Of a stretch of 64,000 nt of DNA, positions 11,151 through 59,903 are shown piece by piece. The DNA comes from Nitrospirota bacterium. GTDB taxonomy: Bacteria > JACPQY01. The DNA lies in assembly GCA_016180645.1 (NCBI GenBank), contig JACPAV010000012.1, positions 38,031 through 102,030 on the forward strand, given 5' to 3'. Within the stretch, counting starts at the first letter, position 1; each line of letters begins with the position of its first letter. The translations under genes were made by a program, and so were the position numbers. The notes beneath the pieces were generated by a model that was given only the letters and a program-made list of their open reading frames with translations, was not told the DNA's origin and searched no databases.

Positions 11151-12665
11151 TTGAAATCTCAAATCTCAAATCTCAAATCGGCCCGCGTGGCCGTTCTGGG
11201 CCTGGCCTCCACCGGGCGAGCGGTGTGCAGGTTCCTCCTAAGAGAGGGCGCCACGGTATTGGGACTGGACCAGAAGGATACCCTTCTCATGCAGGAAATC
11301 GTGAAACCCCTGGTGGAAGCGGGCGTGACCGTCCGTCTCGGTCCGCATCGCAGCGAGGATTTTCGGGGAGTGGATGTGCTGGTCCTGAGTCCCGGCGTGT
11401 CGATTTCTCATCCCACGATCAAGGAGGTTTCGAACCGGATCCCCGTCTGGAGCGAGATCGAACTGGCGTATCGCCATCTGAAGGCTCCGATCATCGGCGT
11501 GACAGGGACCAACGGCAAGAGCACGACCACGGTGCTCATCGGCAAGATCTTGGAAGCGGCGGGAAAGCGGGTCTTCACGGGCGGCAACCTCGGAACGCCC
11601 CTCATCGAAGCGGTCGGTGGCTCCTGGGATTGGATCGTCTGCGAAATCAGCAGTTTCCAGCTTGAGGCGATTCGGGAGTTCAGGCCGAAAATCGGCGTCT
11701 TTTTGAACATCACGGACGACCATCTGGACCGGCACAAGGATTTCAACGAGTATTTCGACGCCAAGAAACGATTGTTCGAACACCAACGAAGCGAGGATTT
11801 CGCCGTCATCAATCTGGATGATCCGCTGTTGGCGGATTGGGCCCGCGCATTGTCCGCCTCGCTCATCGGTACGAGCCGGCTTCGATCGACCTCGCCGGGC
11901 GCCTTCCTCCGGGGGGACGAGTTGGTGTACGGCGATACCCGTGTCGAGGAGAGCTATCCGCTGGCGGAAGCCAACCTCAAGGGCGTGCACAACATTGAGA
12001 ACATGCTGGCTTCGATTGCGGCGGCCCGCCTCGCCTTCTGTCCGCCGGATGCGATCCGCTCCGTCCTGAAAACATTCCAGCCCCTTCCGCACCGGATGGA
12101 ATGGGTGGGAGCGGTGAAGGGCGTCGACTTCTACGACGATTCCAAGGCCACCAACGTTGGCGCGGTGATTCGCGCCATCGAATCGATGACCCCCACGACG
12201 GGGGAAATGCCGCGGGAGGGCAGGAGCCCGGAGCGGCTGACCCGCAAAACGGTCTTGATCCTCGGCGGCCTCGACAAAGGTGGGGATTTCGGCCTGATCG
12301 CGAGTCAGTCCGATCGAATCCGCCATGCGGTCTTGATCGGCCAGGCCAGGCAGCGATTGGAAGAAGCATTGCGGGGCAGGGTGGAGACCTCCCCCGCCGG
12401 ATCGATGGGTGAAGCGGTGCGGTCGGCGTGGAAATCCGCGGAAGAGGGAGATGCGGTGCTGCTTTCACCGGCGTGCGCGAGCTTCGACATGTTCAAAAGC
12501 TACAAGGATCGAGGTGAACAATTTTGTGAGGCCGTCAGGAAACTGGCGGCCGAAGTGTCCGCTTCAGGGCGGGAGGGGTCCCAGGCCCGGAAGACAGGCA
12601 GCAAGCCGAGCGATGGAGGGACGGCGAAGTCGCCAAAAGGGGTTTATGAAGCGCGCATGCATTGA
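11151..12665 (+). CDS. murD: UDP-MurNAc-L-Ala--D-Glu ligase with repeat-encoded insertion
   Basis: Adds D-glutamate to UDP-MurNAc-L-Ala. Begins at TTG 11151, two bases after the mraY stop; the first codons are built from an AAATCTC tandem repeat. GVTGTNGKSTTT is the ATP loop; DDHLDRH and DDSKATNVGA are conserved. At 504 residues it is some 50-60 longer than typical. About 20 extra residues (TPTTGEMPREGRSPERLTRK) lie between DSKATNVGAVIRAIESM and the LILGG strand, exactly where a 53-bp double-hairpin repeat sits, and about 35 low-complexity residues extend the C-terminus. The insertion falls at a loop of the C-terminal domain, so activity is probably retained. Confidence 0.94.
   Translation: MKSQISNLKSARVAVLGLASTGRAVCRFLLREGATVLGLDQKDTLLMQEIVKPLVEAGVTVRLGPHRSEDFRGVDVLVLSPGVSISHPTIKEVSNRIPVWSEIELAYRHLKAPIIGVTGTNGKSTTTVLIGKILEAAGKRVFTGGNLGTPLIEAVGGSWDWIVCEISSFQLEAIREFRPKIGVFLNITDDHLDRHKDFNEYFDAKKRLFEHQRSEDFAVINLDDPLLADWARALSASLIGTSRLRSTSPGAFLRGDELVYGDTRVEESYPLAEANLKGVHNIENMLASIAAARLAFCPPDAIRSVLKTFQPLPHRMEWVGAVKGVDFYDDSKATNVGAVIRAIESMTPTTGEMPREGRSPERLTRKTVLILGGLDKGGDFGLIASQSDRIRHAVLIGQARQRLEEALRGRVETSPAGSMGEAVRSAWKSAEEGDAVLLSPACASFDMFKSYKDRGEQFCEAVRKLAAEVSASGREGSQARKTGSKPSDGGTAKSPKGVYEARMH
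11154..11179 (+). repeat. AAATCTC heptamer tandem repeat at murD start
   Basis: Three full copies of AAATCTC plus AAATC. They encode the first residues of MurD (KSQISNLKS) and lie in the translation initiation region. A related AAATTTGAGATC palindrome occurs at the ftsW 5' end. Confidence 0.85.
12188..12240 (+). repeat. 53-bp double-hairpin repeat, copy A (in murD)
   Basis: Two adjacent hairpins: CCCCC-N5-GGGGG (12190-12204), then GCCGC/GCGGC enclosing GGGC-agga-GCCC (12209-12237). It is translated in frame inside murD. It matches copy B (20367-20419) at 51 of 53 positions and copy C (59412-59464) at 45 of 53 by hand alignment. Confidence 0.9.
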
Positions 12666-19135: not shown

Positions 19136-20368
19136 ATGGCGCGCGGAGATATTGTCGTCGGACTCGATATCGGTACCACGAAGATTTGCGTGGTGGTGGG
19201 CGAGGCGACGGAGTCGGGTACGGATATCATCGGCGTGGGCGACCACCCCTCCCGGGGCCTCCGCAAGGGCGTGGTGGTGAACATCGACAACACCGTCGAA
19301 TCCATCAAGAAGGCGGTGGCCGAGGCCGAGTTCATGGCCGGGTGCGAAATCAACACCGTCTTTGCGGGCATCGCCGGCGGGCACGTCAAGAGCTTCAACA
19401 GCACGGGCGTGATCGCCATCAAGGACCGTGAGGTCAAAACAGTGGACATCGACCGGGTCGTGGAAGCGGCCAAGGCGGTGGCCATTCCCATGGACCGTGA
19501 AGTCATCCACATTCTCCCGCAGGAGTTCATCCTCGACGGACAGGCCGGGTTGAAGGATCCGGTCGGCATGTCGGGTGTACGCCTGGAGTCGAAGGTCCAT
19601 ATCATCACGGCGGCCGTGACCTCGGCCCAGAACATCATCAAGTGCGCGAACAAGGCGGGGCTGGACGTGAGCGACATCATCCTTCAGCAGCTCGCAAGTT
19701 CCGAGGCCATCCTTACGCAGGATGAGAAAGACATGGGTGTGGCGATCCTGGATATCGGGGGGGGGACGACCGATATCGCCGTTTTTGCGGACGGCTCGCT
19801 CAAATACACGTCGGTGCTCAATCTCGGCGGCGACCACGTCACGAACGACATCGTGGTCGGGCTGCGCACGCCGGCCCACGAGGCGGAAAAGATCAAGGAA
19901 AAGTACGGGTGCGCGCTGTCGAGCCTCATCACGAAGGACGAGAACATCGAGGTTCCCGGCGTGGGCGGGCGCAAGTCACGGCAGGAGAGCCGGAAGTTTC
20001 TGACGGAAATCATCGAGCTGCGAATGGAAGAGGTGCTCGAACTGGCGTTTCGGGACCTCGAGAAAGCCGGATTCGGGGAGACCTTGACGGCCGGGGTGGT
20101 GATCACCGGCGGCGGTTCCATGCTGGAGGGATGCGTGGAGCTGGCGGAGAAGGCGTTCAACATGCCGGCTCGCAGGGGAATTCCTGAGAAAGTCGGCGGA
20201 CTCTCGGATGCCGTGAAACATCCGAAGTACGCCACGGGCGTCGGCCTGGTGCAACTGGGAGGCGGATCGAGCAAGCGCAATCAGTTCCGCATCAGGGATG
20301 AGGAGATCTTCGACAAGGTCAAAGCAAGGATGCGAGAATGGTTCAAGGGGATAAAAGACTACTTTTGA
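19136..20368 (+). CDS. ftsA: Cell division protein FtsA
   Basis: Actin-like ATPase that tethers FtsZ to the membrane. 410 residues, starting 2 bases after the ftsQ stop. Phosphate-1 loop GLDIGTTKICVVVG, the 1C domain, phosphate-2 DIGGGTTDIAVF and the ITGGGSMLEG adenosine loop are present. The C-terminal amphipathic membrane helix ends KARMREWFKGIKDYF. The TGA stop (20366-20368) shares two bases with the first bases of the 53-bp repeat copy B. Confidence 0.97.
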   Translation: MARGDIVVGLDIGTTKICVVVGEATESGTDIIGVGDHPSRGLRKGVVVNIDNTVESIKKAVAEAEFMAGCEINTVFAGIAGGHVKSFNSTGVIAIKDREVKTVDIDRVVEAAKAVAIPMDREVIHILPQEFILDGQAGLKDPVGMSGVRLESKVHIITAAVTSAQNIIKCANKAGLDVSDIILQQLASSEAILTQDEKDMGVAILDIGGGTTDIAVFADGSLKYTSVLNLGGDHVTNDIVVGLRTPAHEAEKIKEKYGCALSSLITKDENIEVPGVGGRKSRQESRKFLTEIIELRMEEVLELAFRDLEKAGFGETLTAGVVITGGGSMLEGCVELAEKAFNMPARRGIPEKVGGLSDAVKHPKYATGVGLVQLGGGSSKRNQFRIRDEEIFDKVKARMREWFKGIKDYF

Positions 20369-20419
20369 CCCCCAGGACGGGGGAAATGCCGCGAGAGGGC
20401 AGGAGCCCGGAGCGGCTGA
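20367..20419 (+). repeat. 53-bp double-hairpin repeat, copy B (ftsA-ftsZ junction)
   Basis: Same structure as copy A: CCCCC-N5-GGGGG then GCCGC/GCGGC enclosing GGGC/GCCC. It begins on the ftsA stop codon. In the frame continuous with ftsZ it reads TPRTGEMPREGRSPERL, the same phase and nearly the same peptide as in murD. Confidence 0.9.
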
Positions 20420-59196: not shown

Positions 59197-59903
59197 ACCG
59201 CCAAACCGCCTATCGTTTCTTCGCCGGCCTGCTTCTCTACCCCGAGCCCGACCGCATCGAGCACCTGAAAGCCGCCGCCCGGTGGCTGGCGGAGGGTGAC
59301 GCCGTAAATCGTGAACCCGTGAACCAGAGCCGAGGAATCGGCAAACGGACGGACGGGATCACGGGATCACGGGATCACGGGATCACGCAAGCCGTCCTCT
59401 CCCTCAACGGCGACCTCCAGGACGGAGGAAGTGCCGCGGGAGGGCGGGAGCCCGGAGCAGCCAATCTCGCCGACCTGCAATCCGACTACGTCCGCTTCTT
59501 CCGCTCCAGCCGCCATGACTTCTGCTACCCGTACGAGGGAGCCTACGTGGATCCGGAGATGAGCGCGGCTCTCTCGTTCCGGCTGGAGTCCGAATACGCC
59601 CAAGTCGGCGTCCAACTCTCCGTCAAGGATTTCCCCGACCACGCGGCCACGGAACTTGAGTTCATGTCCTATCTCTGCGGACTTGAAGCGCGGGCGGCGA
59701 TGGAAGGGTACGGAGATGCCGTGGCCGGCTGGCGCCGCCGGGAGCAGATTTTCCTGCGTGACCACCTGGGCAGATGGTTCCCCCAGTTCGCCCGTCGAGT
59801 GGGCGAAACGTCCAGGGGATTCTACCGCGGCGTCTGCGCCGGGGCGGCCGACTTCATTGCCTCCGACAAGACCTGCCTGGAAAGGCTGACCCCCGTCATG
59901 TAA
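59157..59903 (+). CDS. TorD/DmsD-like molybdoenzyme chaperone with repeat-derived segments
   Basis: 248 residues from GTG 59157, the only start codon before the conserved helix RQTAYRFFAGLLLYPEPDR. Family features are LADLQSDYVRFF, FCYPYEGAYVDPE and the FPDHAATELEFMSYLC segment that binds Tat signal sequences and oversees cofactor insertion. The first 13 residues come from a REP-like element. Residues about 50-100 are an insertion made of an 8-bp tandem repeat and the 53-bp repeat copy C, absent from normal TorD proteins. Lies in the molybdoenzyme operon, 152 bases after the ferredoxin gene. Function is likely retained because the insert falls between helices. Confidence 0.8.
   Translation: MARHGTWPEGSPLHRQTAYRFFAGLLLYPEPDRIEHLKAAARWLAEGDAVNREPVNQSRGIGKRTDGITGSRDHGITQAVLSLNGDLQDGGSAAGGREPGAANLADLQSDYVRFFRSSRHDFCYPYEGAYVDPEMSAALSFRLESEYAQVGVQLSVKDFPDHAATELEFMSYLCGLEARAAMEGYGDAVAGWRRREQIFLRDHLGRWFPQFARRVGETSRGFYRGVCAGAADFIASDKTCLERLTPVM
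59353..59387 (+). repeat. ACGGGATC 8-bp tandem repeat within the TorD-like gene
   Basis: Four exact copies of ACGGGATC plus ACG. Since 8 is not a multiple of three, each gain or loss of one unit shifts the reading frame, so the tract could act as a phase-variation switch. Confidence 0.9.
59412..59464 (+). repeat. 53-bp double-hairpin repeat, copy C (in TorD-like gene)
   Basis: Same architecture as copies A and B. The first stem is CCTCC-N5-GGAGG instead of CCCCC-N5-GGGGG, a compensated base-pair change. The second hairpin has one mismatch (GCCGC/GCAGC). It is read in a different frame from copies A and B, giving DLQDGGSAAGGREPGAA. Confidence 0.88.

Follow-up and report, generated by a model that had tools for sequence, protein, structure and literature searches.

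Short two-hairpin repeats inserted in frame in genes of a Nitrospirota bacterium, with relatives in a second phylum

A 51-bp repeat made of two adjacent hairpins is dispersed through the genome of a Nitrospirota bacterium, with at least 21 copies lying in frame in genes that are unrelated to one another and often essential. The family most probably represents short, non-autonomous mobile elements that insert as a unit and, being translatable, can persist in genes. Rickettsia, with its reduced parasite genomes, provides the best-known case of palindromic DNA invading proteins in frame. The present family differs from the known tagged classes but likewise invades core enzymes, MurD, DnaG and SucD among them, in genomes of 3-5 Mb from two other phyla, pointing to a broader way for new peptide segments to enter proteins.

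The repeat unit and its copies

The repeat (consensus GACCYCCASGANGGRGGAARTGCCGCGRGAGGGCAGGAGCCCGGAGCGGCC) has the ends GACC...GGCC. Hairpin 1 consists of 5 bp and a 5-nt loop and is followed by a 4-nt spacer; hairpin 2 consists of 5 bp, an internal loop GRGA/GGA, 4 bp and an AGGA loop. Three copies, A to C, lie in the window, i.e. the 64,000-nt stretch of DNA that was analysed (Table 1). A preliminary description of the same DNA had placed all three and had given identities of 51/53 (A and B) and 45/53 (A and C), which by inspection are right; the unit, however, measures 51 bp rather than the 53 bp proposed there, the last two bases of each span being flank. Copies A and B fold with an energy of -29 kcal/mol (z about -3.7 to -3.8), and the expected structure accounts for 95% of the ensemble, while a single C-A mismatch weakens the fold of copy C (z -0.9). 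A comparison with the covariance models of Rfam gave no match covering the element.

Table 1. Element copies in the window and the genes that carry them.
Feature	Position	Strand	Remarks
Copy A, 51-bp double-hairpin element	12188..12238	+	in murD, in frame; 17 extra residues, TPTTGEMPREGRSPERL
Hairpin 1 of copy A	12190..12204	+	CCCCC-ACGAC-GGGGG; fold and covariation
Hairpin 2 of copy A	12209..12237	+	GCCGC-GGGA-GGGC-AGGA-GCCC-GGA-GCGGC; fold and covariation
Copy B, ftsA/ftsZ junction	20367..20417	+	first two bases (GA) complete the ftsA stop codon TGA
Copy C	59412..59462	+	in frame in TorD/NarJ-like gene; DLQDGGSAAGGREPGAA
murD, 504 aa	11151..12665	+	Pfam Mur_ligase_M and Mur_ligase_C
ftsZ ORF, 629 aa	20338..22227	+	Pfam Tubulin and FtsZ_C; with initiation at the first start codon, element close to the N-terminus
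Nitrate reductase delta subunit/TorD-like gene, 248 aa	59157..59903	+	Pfam PF02613

A BLAST search returned about 19 copies, 17 of which were used to build a covariance model. This model found 33 matches in the same genome at E<0.01, most of them at 1e-9 to 1e-15; the E-values are rough, the genome is a draft MAG and its reading frames are predicted. The weakest match (C48:20205) is doubtful, while another weak one (C15:56712) is confirmed by its sequence as a longer, 90-bp form. Copies in such numbers are far beyond chance, they greatly exceed the three from which the family was first described, and their structure is conserved.

Besides the 51-bp form there are five copies of 90 bp with a longer inner arm, one of 60 bp and two of 52 bp. 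The extra inner arm of the 90-bp variant, ACCCTGAAGGAATCGATGGAATCGGGCAGGGT, is conserved and contains a GGAATC direct repeat, and all five copies of this variant are found in genes. Head-to-tail tandems occur at two sites, one with two 51-bp units (C7:58440/58491) and one with a short unit followed by a long one (C48:13349/13400). Short arrays of other repeats adjoin several copies: just upstream of copy C, the TorD-like gene contains four tandem GGGATCAC units (window positions 59355-59386), and similar arrays (GGGATCAC, TCACGAC, GATTCAC) are located next to copies at C10:39087 and C10:49433 and on contigs C26, C3, C6 and C1.

Host genes, empty sites and the insertion step

Reading frame, codon usage and Pfam evidence place 21 copies firmly in frame in genes. 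Their products are a polysaccharide export protein (with a tandem of two), the PilQ secretin, a DUF1844 protein, methylmalonyl-CoA mutase (N-terminus), MurD, a polyketide cyclase-like protein (C-terminus), ribonucleotide reductase, thiolase, a C25 peptidase, two alpha/beta hydrolases, the TorD-like protein, a DUF1329 protein, a TPP enzyme, a molybdopterin oxidoreductase, DnaG, a NuoB-like protein, SucD and two Ig-like proteins. Three further in-gene copies, in the genes for FtsZ, ScpA and MsrA, are less certain, and whether copy B is translated as part of FtsZ is likewise uncertain. Every in-gene copy has a length that is a multiple of three, with a predicted addition of 17 or 30 residues; the two 52-bp copies have no gene assignment, and one of them lies 14 bp after a tRNA-Cys gene. 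The elements are predicted to be read in frame +0 (DPQDGGSAARGQEPGAA type) 12 times, in frame +1 (TPRMGEVPREGRSPERP type) eight times and in frame +2 once, in the thiolase gene.

Most copies of the 51-bp form have all six frames open; nonetheless, the in-gene copies are almost all in sense orientation. Intergenic copies point both ways (antisense on C19 and C7; sense on C51, C23, C22 and at C10:49433), and a copy on C2 is antisense within a putative ORF. The peptides encoded in the sense +0 and +1 frames are more hydrophilic than the antisense peptides, and tolerance of the peptide, the simplest account of the sense-strand bias in genes for this reason, is its likely cause.

Empty sites are found in relatives. 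One other genome of the same phylum, G001, was compared, which belongs to a different genus of the same family. It carries one strong copy itself, and its orthologs are without the insert at the five sites that align cleanly, with gaps of 17 residues in the DUF1329 protein, 29 in the alpha/beta hydrolase, about 31 in DnaG, 30 in SucD and 17 in MurD, where the aligner split the gap. In the DNA alignment of sucD, TTC|GACCC stands against TTC|GACCC of G001, so that junction bases are neither gained nor lost. The MurD proteins of 11 further MAGs lack the same 17 columns and align gap-free on either side; in MurD the element is thus an exact insert of 17 residues and not the replacement of a loop by 20 residues that had been proposed. 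Solved chains of MurD, SucD and DnaG (PDB) align up to both insert edges. An AlphaFold2 model of MurD predicts the insert between a helix (336-346) and a strand (367-373), with residues 349-363 at pLDDT below 50. That the added residues are instead old conserved loops or domains of the host proteins has no observation in its favour and a practically negligible probability: the same DNA occurs in unrelated proteins and in three reading frames, and relatives align without it. In the thiolase gene (contig C21), downstream of the element, there is a second insert, SPVKGKDKEAFRSPLEGEGAGGGG, which is mostly missing in the G001 ortholog and looks like a member of another in-frame palindromic repeat family.

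The family extends to a second phylum. A scan of 290 genomes with the element model (best 15-20 candidates per genome) gave weak matches in one other lineage only, and a model rebuilt from these matches found four, four and seven copies in three of three genomes of that phylum. These elements measure 54 bp. They have GACC-hairpin-GGRGGAARTGYCGC...GRCC in common but carry another inner hairpin in place of the first (types B, C and D). Sense in-frame hosts include an oligopeptide ABC ATPase, TPR proteins, a glucoamylase and an EcoEI-type restriction helicase, and antisense copies lie in the genes for PepA, PhoH and an AAA/DUF4143 protein. In G030 (contig C27), more than 20 tRNA genes are packed into a few kb, with three elements of the 54-bp type between them. 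The preliminary description had proposed an independent family of protein-invading palindromes in another lineage; the family does lie outside the alphaproteobacteria, but it is not limited to one lineage. A joint model of both phyla found no further lineages among 385 genomes, for each of which the best 15 candidates were scored, a depth that makes absence elsewhere weak evidence and the rarity of the family in other lineages provisional. Viral contigs, phages and plasmids gave no match to short patterns or queries.

A direct view of the insertion step comes from G290, where a type C element is nested in one of type D. The uninterrupted type D sequence in G030 reads GTGTCG-C-GGGCGCC, and the interrupted one reads GTGTCG-TGACC...GACC-GGGCGCC with 55 nt in place of the single C, a net gain of 54 bp. 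This nested copy with its clean 54-bp empty site shows directly that the element inserts, and hence moves, as one defined unit. Together with the empty sites in relatives, it opens the insertion step to testing. The flanks show a preference for C at -1 (29 of 34 copies) and G at +1 (26 of 34). No long target duplication was seen at insertion sites. End dinucleotides match above the shuffled level (TG/TG twice, CA/CA once; p 0.006), a hint of a 2-bp target duplication, but CG is common, and the nested copy has TG/CG. Terminal inverted repeats, a feature of MITEs, are absent: by inspection, the two ends, GACC and GGCC, are not inverted copies of each other.

Covariation of the stems and its possible causes

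Across 24 distinct 51-bp copies, standard pairs make up 97% of stem cells and the covariation score is 0.211 versus 0.108. Two-sided changes occur in five of 14 stem pairs (22 cells versus 6.1 in shuffles, 0/500), one pair being seen as C-G, U-A, U-G and G-C, and the signal is lost when partner columns are slid. One of the five is the change of C to T and of the facing G to A in the first stem of copy C, which the preliminary description had reported, correctly, and had taken to imply selection on structure. The covariation of the stems agrees with that proposal, but a functional RNA is not implied: wobble pairs show no strand preference, with seven G-U on the top strand of the element versus five (A-C) on the bottom strand over all copies, so that the data do not tell the folding strand or an RNA from a DNA role, and hairpin-templated repair could also yield compensated pairs.

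In such quasipalindrome repair one arm is copied onto the other, and compensated pairs reflect mutation bias rather than structural selection. We consider this unlikely; it concerns only the origin of the covariation and is compatible with mobility of the elements. The hairpins are short, and both arms of one pair are altered together in several subfamilies, as repair would predict; yet 14 of 462 cells are non-pairs that persist in many copies, so hairpin-templated correction is not efficient, and the conserved loops and internal loop are left unexplained.

It is less probable still that copies are kept because the structure has a cellular RNA function, for example in mRNA stability, regulation or translational bypassing. 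The strong stems (-29 kcal/mol, z -3.8) with their covariation, and the nearly uniform sense orientation of in-gene copies in the window genome, would suit such a role. Against it stand the two orientations of the intergenic copies, the antisense in-gene copies of the second phylum (PepA, PhoH, DUF4143), the balance of wobble pairs on the two strands, the lack of relation among host genes and of an Rfam match over the element, and the lengths divisible by three without stops, which favour plain translation. The antisense copies, both intergenic (C19, C7) and within genes of the second phylum, also led us to abandon a strict sense-strand rule as an argument for an RNA mechanism.

Mobility and relation to other palindromic repeats

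What is directly observed for the reading as non-autonomous mobile elements is the dispersal of the copies, their exact insertion and in-frame position, the conservation of structure and one nested insertion. On this reading, the element would enter the chromosome as a discrete unit of 51 bp (or, in the second phylum, 54 bp; variants measure 60 and 90 bp), mostly at C^G or C^GA and nearly blind to genes, mobilised by an enzyme that would act in trans and probably recognises DNA hairpins. If the insert is translated, as its frames suggest, the encoded peptide would be short, hydrophilic and probably disordered, tolerated as a surface loop or tail and near-neutral for the host. Survival in essential genes would then be due to a length that is a multiple of three, the lack of stops in the sense frames of the short form and the tolerated peptide. 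More tentatively, the elements may form an undescribed class of mobile double hairpins that evolved compatibility with translation (multiple-of-three length, open sense frames, linker-like peptides), is common to at least two little-sampled phyla and spreads chiefly into genes at C^GA via an unrecognised enzyme. The core sequence of the element did not occur in the literature searched.

Rickettsia palindromic elements (RPEs; Ogata et al. 2000) are palindromic DNA in frame in unrelated genes (PMC10969869, PMC2229807, PMC3767692). Like them, the present element is dispersed palindromic DNA in unrelated, often essential genes, with the encoded residues in probably exposed positions; unlike them, it has two adjacent hairpins, resides in a GC-rich genome and in other phyla, and has related versions common to two phyla. 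RPEs measure about 100-150 bp against 51, 54, 60 or 90 bp, and RPE-4 and RPE-6 have CGTC at one end (PMC3733652), whereas our element lacks CGTC; the distinction is drawn from described sizes and tags. RPE-4 and RPE-6 are included in the CGTC-tagged REPs, which resemble our element as short palindromes without a dedicated transposase (PMC3733652) but are built from one 8-9 bp stem with a CGTC tag and a CCA-like tail. The element has none of these, its two hairpins having stems of 5 bp and 5+4 bp. PARCELs are also protein-coding palindromic repeats across distant taxa, but they consist of amphipathic 25-residue units in tandem, in ORFs without an assigned function, in contrast to single insertions in housekeeping proteins (PMC2996958). 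The coding palindromes of Nematomorpha mitochondria are likewise hairpin DNA in essential genes; there, both arms encode conserved native residues and there is no dispersed insertion family (PMC6649704), unlike the dispersed insertions described here.

GTAG-tagged REPs, which are associated with RAYT, are short dispersed hairpin repeats that sometimes lie in genes, as in Opitutus terrae and others (PMC3733652). Our element resembles them in being short, dispersed, hairpin-forming and found in genes, but it has no GTAG at the hairpin end, flanks no Y1 transposase gene and is mostly intragenic rather than intergenic. It is therefore doubtful that the elements are REPs of an IS200/IS605-like RAYT system, with single-stranded DNA transposition by encoded Y1 tyrosine transposases, unusual only in their genic position. 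The genome does contain seven Y1 transposase (Y1_Tnp) genes, the hairpins and the absence of a long target duplication suit single-stranded DNA transposition, and intragenic REPs have precedent (PMC3733652); yet the seven genes have no copy within 1.5 kb, and this lack of linkage speaks against these transposases, the obvious candidates for the mobiliser. One of them, a short gene at C5:35110, has another palindrome on its flanks, of the GTAG-type REP kind (CGTAGGGGAGCATCTTTAGATGCTCCC...).
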